A DNA stretch of 64,000 nt from Isosphaera pallida ATCC 43644 (GTDB taxonomy: Bacteria; Planctomycetota; Planctomycetia; Isosphaerales; Isosphaeraceae): positions 1,116,001-1,180,000 of the forward strand of contig NC_014962.1 in NCBI RefSeq assembly GCF_000186345.1, written 5' to 3'. Of this stretch, positions 33,325 through 45,020 are shown piece after piece (the first letter of the stretch is position 1; each line of letters opens with the position of its first letter). The translations under genes and the position numbers were made by a program. Below the pieces are notes generated by a model, which was not told the origin of the DNA, ran no database searches, and worked only from the letters and a program-made list of their open reading frames with translations.

Positions 33325-36216
33325 ATGGATCGACCCCACTCGTCCCCAAAGCGGTTGGCGACTAGTATCGCCTCGGTCTGGCTAGCGACGTGGCTGGCTG
33401 GGTGGGTATCGTCATGGGGAGCACCCCAGGACCAGCCGCCGCGTCCCGGCCAGTTCCGAGGCGTTTGGAAGGGCCAAACCGGGGCCGATTACGTCCGCAA
33501 CGGTCCTGGCGAAGTTCCCAACGAGATTCAAGACATCTGCATCCACGTCCAGGGGTTGCCGGTCAACCGTGTGATCACCCGGTTGGAGATTCGCGGCTTC
33601 GGCGGCGATCTTTGGGTCTTCGGTGGTCCGGAGTCGGACTGGAAGGTCAAGATCGTTCGCGCCCGCCACGCGACGACCGCCGAGCTTTACTTCGAGCCGC
33701 TGCGTGTCGAGACCGGACGCGAGTTCACCCTGGATTTTCAGTTCGACGACGGCCAAACCGCCCGATTGATAGTCCGGGGCGGCAAGGCCGACCCCAACTT
33801 GCGCGTGCCCGGCAAAGAACTGGTGGCTCGCTGGGTGGGCACGGTCGATCTCGACCGCGCCGGGGCCTGGTATGGAGTCGGTCCCGATGGCCTGCTCGAC
33901 GCGGCGATCGACCTGGAACGCCTCTCCGCCCTCCGCGCCGTTCGTGCCCTCCGGCTCGAACGCGCCACCTCCTCCCCCTCCAAGACGACCACCCCATCTT
34001 GGGCGTTTGGAGTCGGTCCCGACCTCCATGACTGTTGGCACGCCGATTTTCAAGTGGGCACCGACCCCACCACCGGCCGTTTCTTGTTCCAACCCGACGC
34101 TGTGCTCGCCGACCAACCACTCATACTGACCGTCTCCTACACCGACGGCTCCCGCCAGGTGGTCCGGTTGCAAGGCGGCCCTTGTCGGATTGACGCTCCC
34201 GCAGCGCCTCCCACGCCTCCGGTAGTCTCGGCCTGGGATACTCAACCACGCTGGCTCGAACCCGGTCCCGACGGTCGTTGTCGTGTGGAGGTGCCAAATT
34301 GGCCTACACCCACGCCCGAAATGGTGGTCCTTACCGATGGTCTCAAAGGAAGTTGGGTCTGGAAACGCTCGCCACAACCTAGCATGACACGTAGGTGGAT
34401 GCACGCCGATTCTGAATCTTTGCCCTTAGATGTTCACATACACGGTTCCAAAGCGGTACTGGCCTTTACCCCGCTGCGTGATGAATGCGACGCCAACATG
34501 ACCTTGAGGGCGGTGGAACGCTCGGGAGCCTCCCGCGTGGTCTTCTTCGACGGCGGCCGATGCGACCCCCGCGCGGTGGGGACTCGACCCGCCTCCAGTC
34601 GGACGACCGCCCGACCCGGCGACGATTTGGCGCGTTTGGCGGCCCGCTTCGGTGTGATCGAACTGGCTCCGGGAATCTATCGTCTCAACGCCCCCCTAAC
34701 ATTAGAAAAACCCGTTCATATCAAGGGTCCAGCTGACGCCATTCTCTTGTTCCGGCAACCACCTCACTCTGAACCCTGGACCGCTGCAATTCGGCTGCAC
34801 GCGGGACAGACCACTTTGGAAGGGTTCACCGTGCGTTTCGACGGCCCCATCCGTTGGAATACCGCCGTCCCCTACGGACCAGCCGTCGTGGGTTCAGTGG
34901 ATGGAACGGTCCCTCACCATGAAACCTATGAGCTCCATAATCTGGTGTTCCGTCGGTTGACCCTGACCATTCCCCCTCCCGCCAACCCCGATGCTTGGAC
35001 GGAAGCACCCAACCTCATGCGGCTGATCTCAGCGCGTGATGGCGTCATCGAGGCGAACACCCTGCGCGGCGGCCCGGTGGTCTTCAGTGGCGGTCCCTGG
35101 ATTATCACCGACAACGACTTTCAGGGAACTCCAGGCCAAACCTTCAGCACCGCCGTCTTTTCCGGCAAGCATGTCCATGACCTCGTTCTGGCCCGGAACC
35201 GAGCTGTGCGCGCGCCGGGGTCCGGTCCAGTTTGGCGGTTCCTGGTGCTGACCCAAACCGGCGTTCGCAATCGGATCGAAGGCAACATCGTTCGAGGAGT
35301 TCGCGCCTCCGCCGACGATCCCATTCCCCACCCCAACGCCCCCGAAGTCATCCTCACCGAGTCATATCGCATTCACTTCGAGGGCAAACCCCGCGGCTGG
35401 TCGCGGGATGGCCGCTTGATCCTTCTCCCTGACACACCAGGAGGGCCGCCCCGAACCGGCTCAGTGGTGGCGATCCTCGCCGGGCAACAAGCTGGACGTT
35501 GGACGCGTGTGGCGCAAGTGCTCGACCCGACAACCATCTTGCTTGCCGAACCCCTGGGACCGGTTCAAGAACCGATTCTCGTCACGACCGGATTTGTTGA
35601 CACCACAATCGAACGCAACGAGGTCGATTCGACGGGCGGCTGGCTTTCCACCAACTTGGTGCTAGCAGGCAACCATTTCGGCCTCAAGGTGCGTGACAAT
35701 CGTCTCGTGGGTGGACGCGAGTCGTTGTTTCTGACCGCGTATCCCACCGAGTCGCCTGGACCCTGGGGTTGGACCCACGCCCCGGTTTTCGATGCCCTCG
35801 TAGAAGGCAACCAGTTGGAGAAGGCGCTAGAAGGGGCCGTGATCTCCGTCAAACAGGATGCCAACATCCGCGCTGCCAAGGGTCGGGTTTATCTCACTGC
35901 GACCCTCAAAGGCAATCGAATCACACCACCCGTCGTTCTTCCCCCTGGAGGGGAACGTGTGGGACTCACCTTAGGCGATCCGGGTTCACGCGATCCCAAC
36001 GAAACCCGGATCACCTTGGATGAGTCGGTTCTTGGCCCGGTCATCCGATCCGGTTCCAGCGGTTCCCCCTTTTCGGAAACTCAACTGCGGATCCACGCCG
36101 CCTCAATTAATGGGCGAATTTCTACTCGTCAACGGTTGCGATGGGTGGATGCGGTTGGTTCAGCTACCCAGGTGCGGCGTCACGCTGAAGACGAAAACGC
36201 GACTCGCAAACGCTGA
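33325..36216 (+). CDS. large secreted beta-helix protein
   Basis: A 963-aa exported protein. Residues about 1-33 are a signal peptide ending near SSWGAPQ. The first 400 residues hold repeated strand-rich modules of about 100 residues each, with recurring GPD/WHADF/W-x-HAD elements. From about residue 455 a right-handed beta-helix (pectate-lyase-like) is indicated: FGVIELAPGIYRLNAPLTLE, TTLEGFTVRFDGPI, RDGVIEANTLRGGPVVFSGG, WIITDNDFQG, VRNRIEGNIVRGV, TTIERNEVDSTGGW. Such proteins bind or cleave polysaccharides. No catalytic site can be assigned. The C-terminal 60 residues are less regular. Confidence 0.78.
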   Translation: MDRPHSSPKRLATSIASVWLATWLAGWVSSWGAPQDQPPRPGQFRGVWKGQTGADYVRNGPGEVPNEIQDICIHVQGLPVNRVITRLEIRGFGGDLWVFGGPESDWKVKIVRARHATTAELYFEPLRVETGREFTLDFQFDDGQTARLIVRGGKADPNLRVPGKELVARWVGTVDLDRAGAWYGVGPDGLLDAAIDLERLSALRAVRALRLERATSSPSKTTTPSWAFGVGPDLHDCWHADFQVGTDPTTGRFLFQPDAVLADQPLILTVSYTDGSRQVVRLQGGPCRIDAPAAPPTPPVVSAWDTQPRWLEPGPDGRCRVEVPNWPTPTPEMVVLTDGLKGSWVWKRSPQPSMTRRWMHADSESLPLDVHIHGSKAVLAFTPLRDECDANMTLRAVERSGASRVVFFDGGRCDPRAVGTRPASSRTTARPGDDLARLAARFGVIELAPGIYRLNAPLTLEKPVHIKGPADAILLFRQPPHSEPWTAAIRLHAGQTTLEGFTVRFDGPIRWNTAVPYGPAVVGSVDGTVPHHETYELHNLVFRRLTLTIPPPANPDAWTEAPNLMRLISARDGVIEANTLRGGPVVFSGGPWIITDNDFQGTPGQTFSTAVFSGKHVHDLVLARNRAVRAPGSGPVWRFLVLTQTGVRNRIEGNIVRGVRASADDPIPHPNAPEVILTESYRIHFEGKPRGWSRDGRLILLPDTPGGPPRTGSVVAILAGQQAGRWTRVAQVLDPTTILLAEPLGPVQEPILVTTGFVDTTIERNEVDSTGGWLSTNLVLAGNHFGLKVRDNRLVGGRESLFLTAYPTESPGPWGWTHAPVFDALVEGNQLEKALEGAVISVKQDANIRAAKGRVYLTATLKGNRITPPVVLPPGGERVGLTLGDPGSRDPNETRITLDESVLGPVIRSGSSGSPFSETQLRIHAASINGRISTRQRLRWVDAVGSATQVRRHAEDENATRKR

Positions 36217-36555: not shown

Positions 36556-38385
36556 TCATCGTATCGGTGATCGTCCGGTGAGCGACTCCATAAGCTTGAT
36601 CTTGGTTGAGAAGAGATGAACGCTTCCACCGGAGTAATTCGCCACCGCGAGTCGTCCGGTGTTTGGGTCAAACGCCATAAAATGAGGACGAGTTCCAGTG
36701 AGGTTGGCGAAACCGCGAACCGCCACGGTTTCATGGGTGGCCATCTTGCGAAAATCAACCAAGATGAGAGAAGAATCGTGGGGTTGAGCGATGAGACAAT
36801 GATTCGAGCCCAAACAAACCACCTGACCTTGAAGTGGGGAGGGTGGCAACTCAACGATTTGAGGTGGACAAGACCAAGCATCGACGAGAGCGAGGCGTCC
36901 TTCATAGTGGGCGGCCACCACTAACCGATGACCTGAGAATGACAATCCACCAGGTTCGAACGGCAACGTGATCGCACCCAACTCCCGTGGAGATGTCGCG
37001 TCGTGAATATCGAACCCAATGACCCGCCGACTTCGAAAACAAGCCACCGCTAGGTAAGTCACCGTTTCATCTTGGCGAACCGCCAGACTCTGAGGCTGAT
37101 CAAGAGAATTGTTCAATTCAACATAACTTCTAACGCGAGCCGGACATCCCCGCTCATCAAGTTCAATCAAGGAGATTCGAGGTGGGTCGCGGTTTGGGTC
37201 TCCTTCAGCTCGTCCCGCCGTGAGGACCGCGGCTGCGCAAAGACGAGGCAGAATGACGAGATCCTTGGGATAGTCTCCAACCTCAAAGCGGTCGCCTAAC
37301 GGATTGAGGTTGGTATCGAAGGCTTGGATCCATCCTGGTTTGAGATGCACACCTTCAAAGCCGGCCGATTGGAGAATCAAGAGCGATGGAATCGCGTCCG
37401 TTGGGTCGGTTGCGATTGCTTCAGGACGACCTTCAAGTTCGATTTCACGGCTGAAGAAGGATCGATTCTGTTCATTCCATTCATGGATGGCGATCCGGTT
37501 GAAACGCGGATGAGAGACCGCCAATCGGGAGGAGTTCTGCCACCACGCCAAATGAGTGGCACGCTGCCAACGCGCAGGGATCCGCTCGGTCGCTTGAATT
37601 GAGAGCGTGTCGTTCTCGAATCCGGTTGGTCGAGACCAATGATAGCCTGTCCCGATGACCAGAGCAAGGGCTGGGATAGCTAAAATCGGGATCACCCCAG
37701 ATGCGACGCGCCCCGTCCGCGTTGGTTGGTTGGAACCGAAAGACTTGGACTCACGGTTCCAGATTTTAGGTTCCGTGCCTTGGAGAATGCGTTTGAGGTT
37801 AGCACGATGTCTGAGAATCATCATCACATAGAGAAGTAAGAAAACGATTGTTGAGAAGGAATCTGTGCTAAAAAATGGGTTGTCAACAGAGATGAACCAA
37901 TAAACGAGGAAAATGGCCCCACCGACCAACGAGGAGAGGGAAACCCAACCAGTCAGACCCAAGCTTGCGAGGAACCCGATGACCGCCAAGCCAATGCCCA
38001 GGGGGGCCAGTCCAAAGACGGCACCCAGGCTGGTCGCCACACCTTTGCCGCCGCGAAACTTGAGATAAAGCGGAAAGTTGTGTCCCAAGATGGTCATGAC
38101 CGCGAGAGCCGGCGGGAACCAAGGGGAAGGAGGCCATCCCGCAACCGATTGCGCAAGCAAGGGAAAACCCACCACCGGGCCGTATCCTTTGAGCGCATCG
38201 AGGACGAGAACCGTGAAAAACCCAGTCCAACCCATCACTCGTCGAACATTGGTCGCGCCAATGTTGCCGGAACCAATTTGGCGGAGATCTTGTCCCTTGA
38301 GAGATTTGACAAGAAGATACCCAAAAGGAATTGATCCAATCAAATAAGCAAAAATAAGAAAAACAAGGAACACTAACATGGTCAT
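36556..38385 (-). CDS. plsY: PlsY acyl-phosphate glycerol-3-phosphate acyltransferase fused to a beta-propeller
   Basis: A 609-aa fusion. Residues 1-208 are a complete PlsY, the membrane enzyme that makes lysophosphatidate from acyl phosphate and glycerol-3-phosphate. It has SGNIGATNVRR (39-49), GHNFPLYLKFRGGKG (101-115) and the usual PlsY end RHRANLKRILQGTEPKI. PlsY normally stops here. Instead a linker and an additional membrane helix (about 228-248) lead into about 350 residues of WD/NHL-like propeller repeats (ATHLAWWQNSSRLAVSHP, PQSLAVRQDETVTYLAVA, PHFMAFDPNTGRLAVANYSG). ATG 38385 lies 10 bases after the nucleotidyltransferase stop, so the long frame to 38622 is not used. The propeller probably faces the outside (inference). 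Confidence 0.88.
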   Translation of the reverse strand: MTMLVFLVFLIFAYLIGSIPFGYLLVKSLKGQDLRQIGSGNIGATNVRRVMGWTGFFTVLVLDALKGYGPVVGFPLLAQSVAGWPPSPWFPPALAVMTILGHNFPLYLKFRGGKGVATSLGAVFGLAPLGIGLAVIGFLASLGLTGWVSLSSLVGGAIFLVYWFISVDNPFFSTDSFSTIVFLLLYVMMILRHRANLKRILQGTEPKIWNRESKSFGSNQPTRTGRVASGVIPILAIPALALVIGTGYHWSRPTGFENDTLSIQATERIPARWQRATHLAWWQNSSRLAVSHPRFNRIAIHEWNEQNRSFFSREIELEGRPEAIATDPTDAIPSLLILQSAGFEGVHLKPGWIQAFDTNLNPLGDRFEVGDYPKDLVILPRLCAAAVLTAGRAEGDPNRDPPRISLIELDERGCPARVRSYVELNNSLDQPQSLAVRQDETVTYLAVACFRSRRVIGFDIHDATSPRELGAITLPFEPGGLSFSGHRLVVAAHYEGRLALVDAWSCPPQIVELPPSPLQGQVVCLGSNHCLIAQPHDSSLILVDFRKMATHETVAVRGFANLTGTRPHFMAFDPNTGRLAVANYSGGSVHLFSTKIKLMESLTGRSPIR

Positions 38386-38395
38386 TGTCGCATCC

Positions 38396-39277
38396 TCAAT
38401 GATCAGAATCAAGTGGGGAAACCGAAGAATGATGCGGCGTGCGTGGTTCGTACCCACCCACCAGCGTGTTGGGTTTGGGAGCGCCTTGGTGGGGAAAATC
38501 CCGTCTGAGGTCCTGCGCAGCGGGAGGTGCTGATGGGAGTTGAGTTGAGGTTGGAGGCGACGCGCCAAGAAATTCGTGGCGGCGCGATTGAAACAACGCG
38601 CTGGCCTCGGCGTAGTCGTCATGCCGTCCGATGTCGAGCCATAAGCAGGGTTGTCGGTCGCAGTGGATGGAATGCCCCGCGTCCTTCATCCGCATGAGAA
38701 GGTCGGGCATTCCCAGAGGTTCGCTAGGACCAAGGAAATCCCAGGCAATCGGCTCAAGCAGATAGACGCCCATGCTGACATGGAATGAATAGGTGGGTTT
38801 CTCGACATAGCGCGCTAGCACCTGCGGATCGTCGTCAAACTCCAGCACGCCGAAGTCAATTGGCACGACCCGGGGATGAGCGGCGATCGTAGCGACCGCC
38901 CGACGCCGGCGATGGAACGAGAGCAGGTTAGCGAAACTCAAAGTGGTGAGGATATCGCCGTTGAGAACTAGGGTCGAATCATCGGGACGAGGCACCAGTC
39001 TCAACCCCCCCGCGGTGCCTAAGGGATGAGATTCCCGGATATAGCGAAGACGGGTTCCGAACCGGGATCCATCGCCGCAGAAGGTTTCAATGAACTCCGC
39101 GAAATATCCAGTGAGGATTGTCACATCATCGAATCCGTCCCGCGCCAGTTGGCGCAAGACGATTTCAATGATAGGCATCGGTTCGGGTTCGCCCAACGGC
39201 ATGAGAGGCTTGGGCAAAACGGCCGTGAAGGGACGCAACCGCGTCCCCTTGCCACCGGCAAGAAGAATTGCCTTCAT
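38396..39277 (-). CDS. sugar-1-phosphate nucleotidyltransferase
   Basis: A 293-aa enzyme that activates sugar-1-phosphates with NTP. The signature LLAGGKGTRLRPFTAVLPKPLMPLG is at the N-terminus, followed by LGTAGGLRL, the metal site LVLNGDIL, and VEKPTYSFHVSMGVYLLEP. It groups with mannose-1-phosphate guanylyltransferase-like and glucose-1-phosphate thymidylyltransferase-like proteins, and the nucleotide and sugar cannot be fixed from sequence. The last 50 residues are Pro-rich and variable. It overlaps the upstream glycosyltransferase by four bases (ATGA), so they are coupled. Confidence 0.87.
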   Translation of the reverse strand: MKAILLAGGKGTRLRPFTAVLPKPLMPLGEPEPMPIIEIVLRQLARDGFDDVTILTGYFAEFIETFCGDGSRFGTRLRYIRESHPLGTAGGLRLVPRPDDSTLVLNGDILTTLSFANLLSFHRRRRAVATIAAHPRVVPIDFGVLEFDDDPQVLARYVEKPTYSFHVSMGVYLLEPIAWDFLGPSEPLGMPDLLMRMKDAGHSIHCDRQPCLWLDIGRHDDYAEASALFQSRRHEFLGASPPTSTQLPSAPPAAQDLRRDFPHQGAPKPNTLVGGYEPRTPHHSSVSPLDSDH

Positions 39278-40563
39278 CTTTGATCCTCGCGCAAAATGAC
39301 CCGTGATTCCAAGTGAGAGACCGATCGCCGGCGACTTCGGGCAAACGATCCCGAATCGCGCCGCAGTCGAGCCGCCTCGTCGAAAACATCGAGGAGGCGG
39401 TCTACATGACGATCAAACGATTGTTCGCGTCCCAGCCTTTCCGCCGCGACCGACATCTGTCGAAGCACTTTTGGATTCAACAACTGGTCGAACGCGGCGA
39501 TCAACCCTGGCGTGTCGTAAGGCGTCTTAAGAACAAAGCCTTCCCGTCCTGGACACAGGATCTCTCCAGCTCCGTTTTGGGCGGTGGTGATGACGGGCAG
39601 GCCATGAACCAACGCCTCGAAGACCACCAGTGAGCAAGGGTCGTAAAATGTGGGGGACACGAAGAAGTCGGCGGCCAAATAAGCCTGTCGGATCTCCGGG
39701 AGAAAGCCAGCGAATTGGACCCGATCTGCGATGTTCAGTCGAACCGCCAGGTTCTGGAAGGGCTCGGGACGGCCTCCACCGCAAACCAAAAGCATGATTG
39801 GTGGAGCGAAGCCGGGATTTCGGGCGGCCCAGGTGTCGAGAAACGCTCGGAATCCTCGAAACAGCGGTTCTAAACCTTTGAGCCGAAAGTTATGTCCAAC
39901 AAAGAGACCAACATGCGTATCTAGTCCAATGCCATATCGGGATCGAAGCAACGCGCGGGCGCGCTCCCGATCAGCGCTCGTTAACCTTAGGCGATCGAGA
40001 TGAACCGCGTTGGGGATGACTCGGATCCGATCTTCCGACACGGCGTGATACCGCATCAGGTGCGACTTGACAAAGTGGCTTACAGCAACGATCAATGTCC
40101 GGGAGTGTGACGAATATTGACGCCGTTCAATCTCAAGGTCAGTCCACCATTTGGGATTGAGCCATTTTCCTATCTTGTAAAGGTGACGCCCCCACTTGGT
40201 TTGGAACCGCTGCGCGTTGTATTCCAAACTGGCTTGGCGGACGCCGCCTTGCGGAATCAAGACATCCTGTTCAATGGTGCCAATGAGTCCCACAACGCAG
40301 TCGTAGCAATCACGCTTGGCTTGAATCGCCTCCGCGCAGCGCTGGGCGAAGTGTCGAGTCCGCCAACTCCGAGGCCAGTCCGAACCCTTCAGGTCAATGC
40401 GGTGGAGCTGGACCGAATCGGGAATCTCGTCAGGCCGCCAACTTGACGCGAAGAGATCGACGCGACACCCCCGCTGGATGAGACCGCGCAACAGATCGAC
40501 GACGTAAGTCTCCGCGCCTCCACGTCGGGGGTCAACCGATTCAAAGCCGATGGCGATCTTCAT
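39274..40563 (-). CDS. GT4-family glycosyltransferase
   Basis: A 429-aa retaining glycosyltransferase with the GT-B fold. The N-terminal domain opens with FESVDPRRGGAETYVVDLLRGL. The C-terminal domain has VGLFVGHNFRLKGLEPLFRGF, MLLVCGGG, VQFAGFLPEIRQAYLAADFF and the donor-binding E-x7-E stretch DPCSLVVFEALVHGLPVITT. The pattern resembles LPS core transferases such as WaaG. It probably works at the cytoplasmic face of the membrane. It starts 22 bases after the end of the kinase gene. Confidence 0.87.
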   Translation of the reverse strand: MKIAIGFESVDPRRGGAETYVVDLLRGLIQRGCRVDLFASSWRPDEIPDSVQLHRIDLKGSDWPRSWRTRHFAQRCAEAIQAKRDCYDCVVGLIGTIEQDVLIPQGGVRQASLEYNAQRFQTKWGRHLYKIGKWLNPKWWTDLEIERRQYSSHSRTLIVAVSHFVKSHLMRYHAVSEDRIRVIPNAVHLDRLRLTSADRERARALLRSRYGIGLDTHVGLFVGHNFRLKGLEPLFRGFRAFLDTWAARNPGFAPPIMLLVCGGGRPEPFQNLAVRLNIADRVQFAGFLPEIRQAYLAADFFVSPTFYDPCSLVVFEALVHGLPVITTAQNGAGEILCPGREGFVLKTPYDTPGLIAAFDQLLNPKVLRQMSVAAERLGREQSFDRHVDRLLDVFDEAARLRRDSGSFARSRRRSVSHLESRVILREDQR

Positions 40564-40585: not shown

Positions 40586-41494
40586 TTATGATGGCAAAGT
40601 GGCTTGGTGTTTGCGATGATGACAAAGGTATCGGTGTGTTTTTACAGAAACTAGCGTTGCCGTCAGTGAGGCCGCTGGAGGTTGACAACACTCGCGATAC
40701 ACACGCCAAAATAACCGGCGGTCCCGTTCCTCAACCCCGACGACCCCTTGGGTTGAAAACCGCCACTGTGCCAAATCTTTGATTCGATATCGCCAACGGG
40801 TGATCGAAGAAGGTTGAATCATTCGTTGGAAGTCGATCAGTGTCAAGTGACCGACCGGCGAATCAAGGGAGTGAGACACGAAGAAATGGCAGAGGTAAAG
40901 GTCTTGATGAAACCACCCTGCCCGATGGAGCAGGGCGGTCATTTCCGCCATGCGTCGAACCACGTTTTGCTTCCAAACCAAGAAGGAGGCGTAGTCGAGA
41001 AGCTCAAAAGCGCGGGGGATGGCTTCGTGGACGGCCAGGGCCTCGTCGATTTCGCGAATCAGTAACAACGACTGAACGCCACCATCGGCCTTCACCCGAA
41101 CCGCGGCGGCCACCGATTCGGGAACCGTTAGACCAAGCCGGCGGGCGGACTCAAGGTGACGCCATTCCGTCGCCGCTGCCGACCGGAACACTTTTGATTC
41201 GAGGGGGAAGTTTCGGGGAACTCGTTCCCGATCATGGTGTTTGAGATAGCACACAAGTGAATTTGCGCCTTTTGTGGGTTCGAGTTGAACCCGAGCGGTC
41301 AACCGTCCCTGCTTCCGATGAATCCGATCCCAACACGATTGAGAAAGATCAGGGTCAAAGAGCGTGTCAAAACGACCAGGCGCAAACATTGTTGTCCATC
41401 GGGGTGAGATCCAATAAAAAACGTGATGGTTTTGATGAAGGGCGTGGCATTTCCACTCGGGAAGGTCGATCATTTCGGTTGCAATTGGCCGCAT
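40586..41494 (-). CDS. LPS core kinase-like protein (RfaP/InaA family)
   Basis: A 302-aa small-molecule kinase with a reduced protein-kinase fold. It has K85 in VCYLKHH, the catalytic loop WFHQDLYLCHFFV with D198, and the metal-binding DFQ (D221) in LTLIDFQRM. H-x-D-L-Y-x-x-H is diagnostic of RfaP/KdkA-type kinases, which phosphorylate heptose or Kdo in the LPS inner core. A planctomycete glycolipid sugar is the probable acceptor (inference). Its start overlaps the upstream membrane transferase gene by 25 bases. Confidence 0.83.
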   Translation of the reverse strand: MRPIATEMIDLPEWKCHALHQNHHVFYWISPRWTTMFAPGRFDTLFDPDLSQSCWDRIHRKQGRLTARVQLEPTKGANSLVCYLKHHDRERVPRNFPLESKVFRSAAATEWRHLESARRLGLTVPESVAAAVRVKADGGVQSLLLIREIDEALAVHEAIPRAFELLDYASFLVWKQNVVRRMAEMTALLHRAGWFHQDLYLCHFFVSHSLDSPVGHLTLIDFQRMIQPSSITRWRYRIKDLAQWRFSTQGVVGVEERDRRLFWRVYRECCQPPAASLTATLVSVKTHRYLCHHRKHQATLPS

Positions 41495-43107
41495 GTCGCC
41501 ACCTCCTGACCACGTGTGATCGGATCTCCGGCGAAGTTGGGCCTGCCCAGTTGGTAAATCAGGACGCTGCGGTCTTCACCTCCGCGGTGCGGTGGGGAGC
41601 CGTCGAACGCTCCCACCAAGGCCGCGTTTCGATCGCGCAGGACACGTCGGATTGCCTCCGCGCGGTTCGATTTCCCTTCGACCTCGTTCCTTTGAAAGAC
41701 CAGGTAGCGCAAATGGTGGTCCGTGAGTGCCTGGGTCAAGTGCCAAGCGTCATAGTCGCGTCGTTGTGTGACAAACAAAACAAACCCCCGCGAGTCGAAC
41801 ACACGCTCGCCATCCACAAGACGCGACTGAAGCCAGGTGGCCGCCTCGAGCTGCGCTGCTCGACTGAGATGATTTCCTCGACTCGCCAATCCGAACCCGA
41901 TCAAAAGCAAAAACCCGCAGACCAAGCTGCACCAACGTTGAATTCCAGGTCCCCTTGCAAGTCGGAGCTGCTCGAAGAGGTGGTTGGCCACCCAGGCGCA
42001 CCAGATGACTCCAAAGCATCCAATTAACCAAGCGTGACGTTCGGAGAGGTAGTGAAGACGTTCATATTGCATCGACTGGGCGAGGGTGATGATGGTGAGA
42101 CCAAAACCCGTTTGAGCAAGGATCGGGTGCGATCGACCGTGGATCCGGCTGAACCAGACACTGCCAAGGACAATAGCCAGGCTGCCGGGAACTCCGGTTG
42201 CCCTCAAACCGGTGGCGAGCGCCGCGAAGACCGTGGAGGTTAGGGCATTCTCTTGATTGGCGTCCGTTTCCTCTTTGGGCGTCCATCCTGCCAGCAGGTT
42301 AGAAGGAGAGGTGTCTTTGAGTCGGAGTTTTTCCGCCGCCATCGGACTGAGTCCGATGCTGAGTCGAACCGACAATTTCTCCGAGACGGCTCCTTTGACT
42401 AGCGCGTAACAACCACACGTTATCATCAGTCCAACCAGGAAAGTGATTGTCACCAAACCGCGTTGATACCATGTGGAACGTTCTCGAGGAGTTCCCCAGA
42501 CGCTCGCCAAAATGAGGGCGGCCATCAGGATCGCGTCGGGTTTGAAGCCGTAGCCGACCCCAATCAACCAGCCCGAGACAAATGCCAAGGCGGGGTTGAA
42601 CCAGCGTTGTGTCGCAAGGGTCGTGTTGAAAAGCCACCAGGCCCAGACGCACACCCCAACCATCCAAGAGTCAGCCAGCGTGTCGTGGCTGATCGTGTTG
42701 AACACTGGGGTCAACCCGACCCAGGCGACGATCCAAAGGGCCAACCCGCGTCCCAACCAGAGACGACTCAGCGCGATGAGCCCTGTAACGATCATCACCC
42801 ACCCTCCAATGGCAACCATTTGTCCACTGATCCGCCAGAGGGTTGAGGTAGAAGCGTCCCAGTCGAAGGCCGTGTTGAGCCGGCTTGCCAGGGGTTGCAG
42901 AAGTGCGACCAACGCGGGATAAAGGGGATGTCGATCGGTGTCCTGGACCACGTGGTACCACGGTTGGGTTTGAAAGTCGCGGGCGACCCGCAGATAAACG
43001 AGGCCGTCGGGCGCGGGCAGAGGCGTGCGGGCCAGGCCGATGAGATGGCCTCCAACCATCAGGGCCAGGATCGCCGTTGTTCTTGCCCACTCGGACCGTG
43101 ACCTCAC
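41470..43107 (-). CDS. polytopic membrane glycosyltransferase-like protein (GT39/PMT type)
   Basis: A 545-aa integral membrane protein with about 9-11 helices and a soluble C-terminal part of about 130 residues. The first loop carries DGLVYLRVARDF and DTDRHPLYPALVALLQ, matching the D-x-x-x-Y and H-P-L-Y region of GT-C enzymes that use polyprenyl-linked sugars. The acceptor is unknown. GTG 43107 is chosen because AAGGAG lies seven bases upstream, and ATG 43140 has no proper spacing. It leads the five-gene minus-strand run ending with plsY. Confidence 0.75.
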   Translation of the reverse strand: MRSRSEWARTTAILALMVGGHLIGLARTPLPAPDGLVYLRVARDFQTQPWYHVVQDTDRHPLYPALVALLQPLASRLNTAFDWDASTSTLWRISGQMVAIGGWVMIVTGLIALSRLWLGRGLALWIVAWVGLTPVFNTISHDTLADSWMVGVCVWAWWLFNTTLATQRWFNPALAFVSGWLIGVGYGFKPDAILMAALILASVWGTPRERSTWYQRGLVTITFLVGLMITCGCYALVKGAVSEKLSVRLSIGLSPMAAEKLRLKDTSPSNLLAGWTPKEETDANQENALTSTVFAALATGLRATGVPGSLAIVLGSVWFSRIHGRSHPILAQTGFGLTIITLAQSMQYERLHYLSERHAWLIGCFGVIWCAWVANHLFEQLRLARGPGIQRWCSLVCGFLLLIGFGLASRGNHLSRAAQLEAATWLQSRLVDGERVFDSRGFVLFVTQRRDYDAWHLTQALTDHHLRYLVFQRNEVEGKSNRAEAIRRVLRDRNAALVGAFDGSPPHRGGEDRSVLIYQLGRPNFAGDPITRGQEVATCGQLQPK

Positions 43108-43337
43108 GCTCGATCTCCTTTCGACCGATTCGGACCACATCCTTTGGACGCCGCGGGAGCGCTGGGACGATAGACTGGTCCTCCGCGCGTGTCAATCCAG
43201 AATCCAAGGCAACCGGCTCAACGCCTCGCTAACCGGCCGCGACGTCCCGACGCTTCTTGAGTACAATGCAACGGGTCGCGTTCCGGCGGGGCACCACCCC
43301 TCGCCGCCTGTATTCCTCCATGTGAAAGGAAGCCGCG

Positions 43338-43949
43338 ATGCTCGGCGTCCATCTGGGACTCGTCCCTTACCTTCAGAGGGTCTGCCAAGAGCTCGGCCGC
43401 CTTGAGCCCCAACCCGTTTACGATCTTTGTGATCATCTTGAACGGGCGTATCAAAGCCGCGCGATGATCTTTGTCATCGGCAACGGAGGCTCGGGAGCCA
43501 ACGCCTCGCACCTTTGCGAGGACTTAAATAAATGCACGCTCAGGGATTTTGAGAACCAATCACGACTGCGGGTCTTGAGCTTGACGGACAACACGCCCGG
43601 GATCACCGCGTGGGCCAACGACGAGGGATACGACCGGATTTTCGTGGAGCAGCTCAAAACCTACGCATCGCCGGGGGACGTGCTGATTGCCATTTCCGGG
43701 TCGGGCAACAGTCCGAACATTCTCAAGGCCGTTGAGTGGGCCAACGCCAACGGTCTGACGACCTTTGGAATGACCGGCTTTTCGGGCGGAAAGCTTAAGA
43801 CAATGGCTCATAAAACGATTCATGTGGCGATTGACGACATGGGGATCGCAGAATCCATTCATCAGGTGGTGTTTCATTGGGTTGTGGACGACATCTATCG
43901 CCGCATTTCCGGCCCGATCGCCCAAGCCTCGGCGAACTCAACCGACTGA
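43338..43949 (+). CDS. phosphoheptose isomerase-like SIS protein (GmhA type)
   Basis: A 203-aa protein with a single SIS domain. IFVIGNGGSGANASHLCEDL, DNTPGITAWANDEGYDRIF and VLIAISGSGNSPNILKAVEWA are the sugar-phosphate-binding segments. The His and Glu in ASHLCED and the Gln and His in SIHQVVFHWV occupy the metal-ligand positions of GmhA, which converts sedoheptulose-7-phosphate to heptose-7-phosphate. The ROK kinase follows after 24 bases. Another ketose-phosphate substrate is possible. Confidence 0.83.
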   Translation: MLGVHLGLVPYLQRVCQELGRLEPQPVYDLCDHLERAYQSRAMIFVIGNGGSGANASHLCEDLNKCTLRDFENQSRLRVLSLTDNTPGITAWANDEGYDRIFVEQLKTYASPGDVLIAISGSGNSPNILKAVEWANANGLTTFGMTGFSGGKLKTMAHKTIHVAIDDMGIAESIHQVVFHWVVDDIYRRISGPIAQASANSTD

Positions 43950-43973
43950 CCCCGATTTCGAGTTGAACCAGCC

Positions 43974-45020
43974 ATGATGCGATCCGACAAGACTGCGATG
44001 TCCTCCCACGCCAAAAAGCTTGCGCCTGGAGAGTGGTTGGTGGGAGTGGAGATTGGCGGGACCAAACTTCAGTTGGGCCTGGGCCGAGACACTGGAGACT
44101 TGAAGGCGATCCGCCGGGTGGGAGTCGATCCGGCCGGTGGTGCTCGGGGAATCCTCGAACAAATCGCCTTCGAGTTGGATCAATTGATTCATGGCGCGAA
44201 TTTGGACTTTGCGGCGGTTGCGGCGGTTGGCGTCGGCTTTGGTGGACCGGTTGACCGCCTCGGCGGCACGGTTCGGAATTCTTATCAAATCGAGGGCTGG
44301 ACTCAATTCGATCTGCGGTCCTGGTTCCAAGGTCGGTTTCACGGGCGTCGCGGCCAACCGCCCCCGGTCGTCCTTCTCAACGACGCCGACGCCGCCGCGC
44401 TTGGGGAGGCGCGATGGGGTTGCGGAAAAGGATGCTCACCCCTCGTCTACGTGACCGTCGGCAGTGGCGTTGGCGGTGGTTTGGTGATTGATGGGGCGTT
44501 GTGTCCAGGTTCGATTCAAGGACCGGGAGCAATGGAGTTGGGCCACCTGCGGATTGCGCGGGCCAACAATCAGGAGTTAGAGGCGGTCGCCTCGGGATGG
44601 GCTCTGGCGAGTCGAGCCAAAGCGAGGTGGCACGAAGCCGGCGCTTCGACACTTCGCGATCTGGTGGACGGTGATGTGGAGTCGGTGACCGGGGAAATCG
44701 TGGGGATCGCGGCGGGCTTGGGCGACCCCGTTTGCCGGGAGGTGGTGGAACAGGCCGTGGACGCGATGGTCGAAGCGCTAACGGCGGTGGTGGTTCTCAT
44801 CGGTCCGCAACGCATCATTCTGGGCGGTGGTGTCTCATTGATGGAGGAGGATCTTTGGATCAAGCCGATCGAACAAGGCTTGCGTCGAGAGGTTCCCGCC
44901 ATGTTTCGGGACACGATTGACCTTGTCCGCCCCAAACTTGGGGACCATGTGGTTCTTCATGGCGCGATCGCTGCCGCCCATGATGTTTGGGAACAAGTCG
45001 CGTCCTCATATCGGACCTAG
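43974..45020 (+). CDS. ROK-family sugar kinase
   Basis: A 348-aa kinase of the ROK group. The phosphate-binding loop is GVEIGGTKLQLGL, the catalytic Asp is in LLNDADAAALGEARWG, and VTVGSGVGGGLVIDG and ELGHLRI follow. The Cys-rich zinc motif of NagC/Mlc-type ROK proteins is absent, and LEAVASGWALASRAK stands in its place, so this is an enzyme without the DNA-binding part. It phosphorylates a hexose or other sugar in the cytoplasm. It is in one unit with the SIS isomerase gene. An in-frame ATG at 43998 is an alternative start. Confidence 0.85.
   Translation: MMRSDKTAMSSHAKKLAPGEWLVGVEIGGTKLQLGLGRDTGDLKAIRRVGVDPAGGARGILEQIAFELDQLIHGANLDFAAVAAVGVGFGGPVDRLGGTVRNSYQIEGWTQFDLRSWFQGRFHGRRGQPPPVVLLNDADAAALGEARWGCGKGCSPLVYVTVGSGVGGGLVIDGALCPGSIQGPGAMELGHLRIARANNQELEAVASGWALASRAKARWHEAGASTLRDLVDGDVESVTGEIVGIAAGLGDPVCREVVEQAVDAMVEALTAVVVLIGPQRIILGGGVSLMEEDLWIKPIEQGLRREVPAMFRDTIDLVRPKLGDHVVLHGAIAAAHDVWEQVASSYRT

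Follow-up and report, generated by a model that had tools for sequence, protein, structure and literature searches.

The stretch of DNA analysed here, referred to as the window, covers 64,000 nucleotides of Isosphaera pallida ATCC 43644, whose genome is complete at 5,529,304 bases in two contigs, the larger being 5,472,964 bases. On its reverse strand lies a gene in which the acyltransferase PlsY is followed, in the same frame, by a further membrane helix and a predicted beta-propeller (Table 1). The frame runs uninterrupted for 609 codons from an ATG start; as had been noticed in a first-pass annotation made from the sequence, the motif that normally ends PlsY (RHRANLKRILQGTEPK) is intact and the frame continues past it.

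Table 1. The plsY-propeller gene, its parts and the operon upstream of it (positions within the window)
Feature	Position	Strand	Basis and remarks
plsY-propeller fusion gene	36556..38385	-	609 aa plus stop; one open frame
PlsY domain, residues 1-205	37771..38385	-	Seven membrane helices; PF02660, TIGR00023
Basic linker, residues 206-230	37696..37770	-	Expected cytoplasmic; net +4 before helix, low conservation
Eighth membrane helix, residues 231-251	37633..37695	-	Hydropathy peak 2.34; helix in AlphaFold2 model
Seven-bladed beta-propeller, residues 255-596	36598..37623	-	AlphaFold2 model, VIA-align, profile match
Sugar-phosphate nucleotidyltransferase	38396..39277	-	PF00483, 124 bits; directly upstream of plsY-propeller, same operon
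GT4-type glycosyltransferase	39274..40563	-	PF00534, PF13439; position conserved
WaaP/Kdo-type lipopolysaccharide kinase	40586..41494	-	PF06293, 72.6 bits; position conserved
PMT_2-like membrane protein, operon head	41470..43140	-	PF13231 below cut-off, E 0.004

The upstream genes share the strand of plsY-propeller and are separated by short gaps or overlap, and in 16/16 loci examined the plsY gene is the last of an LPS-type glycan operon (kinase, GT4, nucleotidyltransferase). The nucleotidyltransferase holds its place throughout these loci, at 58-69% identity, as does the PMT_2-like protein in all 15 loci of sufficient length; for the kinase, the closest NCBIfam model is RfaP, which scores below its cut-off. 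The earlier description of the upstream genes as glycan-building is borne out by these Pfam matches and by their conserved order, and lipid synthesis could plausibly be coupled to that of glycans. Scans for promoters and terminators gave matches at chance level only. Divergent from the operon, at 43338-45020 on the forward strand, are genes for a SIS-domain protein nearest to the phosphoheptose isomerase GmhA (under the cut-off) and for a sugar kinase of the ROK family, which may belong to the same envelope-sugar region; a 963-residue forward-strand frame at 33325-36216 has an N-terminal signal-like stretch, repeat-like sequence and no Pfam match.

The first 205 residues belong to a well-characterized family. 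PF02660 matches residues 12-200 with 163 bits against a cut-off of 24.1, and TIGR00023 scores 167.9 bits against 137.2. Family, fold and substrate residues are those of known PlsY (TIGR00023; Aquifex structures 5XJ5-5XJ9, PMC5700162), the seven-helix fold being recovered by comparison with 5xj5-5xj8 (TMt 0.80-0.83, rmsd 3.3-3.9, identity 34-35%). All of the substrate residues are present, namely S39, N41, GGKGVAT at 112-118, H193, N196 and E205, and they align with those of Aquifex PlsY 5xj5, an enzyme for which mutants of the substrate-binding residues have been described (PMC5700162). The GSGNxGATN, GGKGVAT, HRxN and E motifs do not vary across 31 sequences, I. pallida among them. This is also the only PF02660 gene in the I. 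pallida genome, which encodes PlsX, the acyl-phosphate maker, so it should be the working enzyme; judged from sequence, the PlsY half is probably an ordinary, active acyltransferase. The sole copy and the presence of PlsX would likewise support the earlier description of PlsY as essential, and PF01553 acyltransferases, also encoded in the genome, may offer a PlsB-like backup.

Where known PlsY proteins are about 200 residues long with a cytoplasmic end, here 400 further residues cross the membrane. In the seven-helix Aquifex enzyme the active site faces the cytoplasm (PMC5700162); the last PlsY motif contributes its His and Asn to that site, which puts the C-terminus of PlsY in the cytoplasm as well. 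Hydropathy and the structure model agree with the annotation in placing one extra helix after it, at residues 231-251, which would leave the propeller outside. The flanking charges point the same way, with a net +4 before the eighth helix and -1 after it in I. pallida and, averaged over the sequences, +4.7 in the linker and +0.4 in the stretch past the helix; 30 of 32 sequences obey the positive-inside rule at this helix. The PlsY structure, the basic linker and the single further helix thus support the topology originally proposed, in which the propeller lies across the membrane from the PlsY C-terminus, and we infer an extracytoplasmic location for it. Linker and eighth helix, at 1.76 and 1.33 bits, are the least conserved parts of the protein.

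Propeller-like repeats had been suspected beyond the helix, and structure prediction resolves them into seven blades. In the AlphaFold2 model of the fusion protein (14 aligned rows, pLDDT 80.6), the helix at 231-251 is followed by 28 strands in seven sets, sorted into blades by hand, with the N-terminal strand 261-269 serving as the outer strand of blade 7 and so closing the ring. VIA-align gives Z scores of 31.5-32.3 to WD40 propellers and E. coli YncE, so that model and alignment (Z about 32) both describe seven four-stranded sheets in a closed ring. The propeller domain of Singulisphaera acidiphila folded alone reached a pLDDT of 85.3 and a pTM of 0.81. With the isolated domain, Foldseek returned poor TM-scores and large rmsd, and for that reason the fold claim rests on VIA-align and the full model. 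Profile comparison with the PDB matched the S-layer propeller 1L0Q (1l0q, E 1.6e-8). No Pfam family matches the propeller at its cut-off, and the lactonase family PF10282 reaches 16-17.9 bits against 21.7 (E 0.002-0.007), which places the propeller outside the YncE/YVTN/lactonase group as defined by that profile. YncE/YVTN-type seven-bladed propellers (3VGZ, 7SEU) share the fold, with VIA-align Z 31.6-31.9 for YncE; they are about 13% identical to the propeller described here and, unlike it, are not attached to a membrane acyltransferase.

The fusion, sought in other planctomycetes, recurs across the order. A survey of 45 Isosphaerales genomes recovered PlsY and the C-terminal region from 43 each, and the two form one continuous frame in 37/45, several of which are finished chromosomes. 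This count combines 34 extracted frames, two genomes judged by frame lengths (G014, G041) and G006, where the gene is interrupted by a contig end; three further, incomplete assemblies (G003, G020, G036) lack one or both parts. The relatives recovered are Isosphaeraceae, and named species with the fusion include Singulisphaera acidiphila DSM 18658, Singulisphaera sp. GP187, Tautonia sociabilis and Paludisphaera soli. Among the extracted frames is that of G031 (L100), a 5-contig genome in which the first half of PlsY is split over two frames at about G031:C1:5237639-5238201; this may be either a sequencing error or a real frameshift.

In the remaining five genomes (G005, G010, G033, G034, G035), plsY and the propeller are separate genes. 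The start of the propeller gene overlaps the plsY stop at ATGCTTGA in G005, at GTGGATAA in G010 and at ATGA in G033 and G035, and in these four the split propeller product opens with a membrane helix of its own; G034 has its propeller gene on the opposite strand, about 15 kb from plsY. As separate genes occur in five genomes and one pair is unlinked, covalent attachment is not obligatory. A tree of PlsY and the neighbouring nucleotidyltransferase, with moderate support, places the splits at three points among the fused genomes, and the genes were probably, though not certainly, fused once in an ancestor and split later. No true homologue of the propeller was found in about 255 other Planctomycetia genomes, and a phylum sample of 294 gave just weak generic propeller matches, by which a recent gain of the propeller from a close relative was rejected.

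Both halves are under purifying selection, dN/dS in seven pairs spanning 0.06-0.31 in the propeller and 0.10-0.32 in PlsY. Within the propeller, loops of the top face are better conserved than those of the bottom face (2.47 versus 1.45 bits; Mann-Whitney p 4e-7, sites being treated as independent), most strongly in blades 1-3 and the loop preceding blade 1. From the usual strand order, the bottom face would lie closer to the membrane, with the conserved top face pointing away. I. pallida itself deviates from motifs near-universal among its relatives, with HPRFNR for CPRYNR (residues 291-296) and YPKDL for YPDDL (372-376), such that H292 replaces a Cys and K374 an Asp at family-conserved propeller sites; it also sits on a long branch of the tree.

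C-terminal additions to PlsY are not confined to this order. Fusions of PlsY to DegV ('DagV') are known from Bellilinea caldifistulae and Thermanaerothrix daxensis, DegV being a fatty-acid-binding protein for which a hand-over of acyl-phosphate has been proposed (PMC5700162). These share a second domain at the PlsY C-terminus with the protein described here, which instead has an extra helix and a propeller across the membrane; Pfam and NCBIfam scans gave no DegV match after PlsY, and the region folds as a propeller. A second kind occurs in a planctomycete family, f3 (L145-L155, L137), probably the Gemmataceae, where the part added C-terminally to PlsY is a DUF4149-like membrane domain, about 200 residues long, rather than a propeller (6 of 12 scanned above the Pfam cut-off, four more slightly below). 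PlsY is plain in G166 (L156). The order kinase-GT4-plsY is also seen in the f3 genomes G076 and G142, and a GT4 gene lies upstream in G115; because the first two share the order without a propeller, plsY was linked to LPS-type genes either before the propeller was added or independently of it. While C-terminal fusion of PlsY as such has thus been reported, among open-licence PMC papers we found no published PlsY-propeller or PlsY-DUF4149 fusion.

How bacteria keep phospholipid supply in step with the growth of the outer envelope is unsettled, the best-studied case being LpxC control in E. coli. An order-wide fusion whose operon of LPS-type genes stays constant is a candidate lipid-envelope link, and this clade-wide protein may connect lipid making to cell-envelope building. 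A sensor or scaffold, as the annotation suggested, is a possible role for the propeller. Our most likely reading, which we put forward tentatively, is that the propeller serves envelope assembly as a docking or sensing module. PlsY would acylate glycerol 3-phosphate at the cytoplasmic face with acyl-phosphate as donor, and from its C-terminus the chain would lead through the basic linker and one more membrane crossing to the seven-bladed propeller in the periplasm. The conserved face (b-c and d-a loops, chiefly of blades 1-3 and 7) would bind a putative envelope partner, protein or glycan, and the propeller would dock PlsY at the assembly site of the operon's LPS-type glycan products, or else tune it to that site.

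This docking or sensing role is consistent with a sole intact PlsY in a genome with PlsX, with the prevalence of the fusion and with the stop-codon overlaps in four of the five split genomes, which retain coupled expression and an own helix. It also agrees with the fold of the propeller, with a dN/dS resembling that of PlsY and better conserved top-face loops, and with the constancy of the glycan operon, including the gene order in G076 and G142. Poor conservation of linker and helix beside a conserved propeller face is in keeping with a tethered binding domain. Against it, cis attachment is dispensable in G034, the f3 operons associate PlsY with glycan genes independently of a propeller, and I. 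pallida has lost several family-conserved sites. Moreover, the top faces of propellers are often the better conserved anyway, and the loop test assumes independent sites. A more specific form is unlikely: the propeller, from the periplasm, would monitor how assembly of the outer envelope (LPS/glycan) is proceeding and accordingly adjust or position the first committed phospholipid step. It would amount to a direct physical coupling of inner-membrane lipid supply to envelope growth, with parallel C-terminal additions to PlsY in two planctomycete families.

The main rival is a neutral fusion, in which the propeller has a periplasmic job of its own unrelated to PlsY; the two genes would have joined because they overlap in one operon, and fusing or splitting them would make no difference. 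The occurrence of split versions within fused groups in three separate lineages, the unlinked gene of G034 and the propeller's retention of its own membrane anchor all speak for it; the persistence of the fused state in most of the order, and of adjacency and overlap in four of the five splits, speaks against it, and we hold it less likely than the docking or sensing role. Allosteric control in cis, whereby the propeller senses an extracytoplasmic condition or ligand and alters PlsY activity through the eighth helix, would make sense of a one-helix covalent link to the only PlsY and of a single conserved face, but the low conservation of linker and helix makes a tether likelier than a signal relay and separate-gene versions exist, so we regard it as improbable. 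That the propeller works as a periplasmic enzyme, either resembling a lactonase or acting as a hydrolase that modifies glycans or lipids, is less probable again: the sub-threshold PF10282 likeness and conserved polar top-loop residues hint at it, yet there is neither a family at cut-off nor a recognized catalytic set, and some conserved polar residues are lost in I. pallida. Lastly, the artefact that the first reading had to consider, a missed stop codon or sequencing error merging two genes at 37700-37780, might be suggested by the separate genes of five relatives but is excluded for practical purposes by the same in-frame junction in 37 genomes.

The fused, overlapping and unlinked versions provide natural controls, and as the planctomycete envelope is unusual, the fusion offers a concrete protein for tagging and deletion there. 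Of 298 Planctomycetia genomes, about 100, from family f5 and other families, have no PF02660 PlsY match and must acylate glycerol 3-phosphate by some other route.
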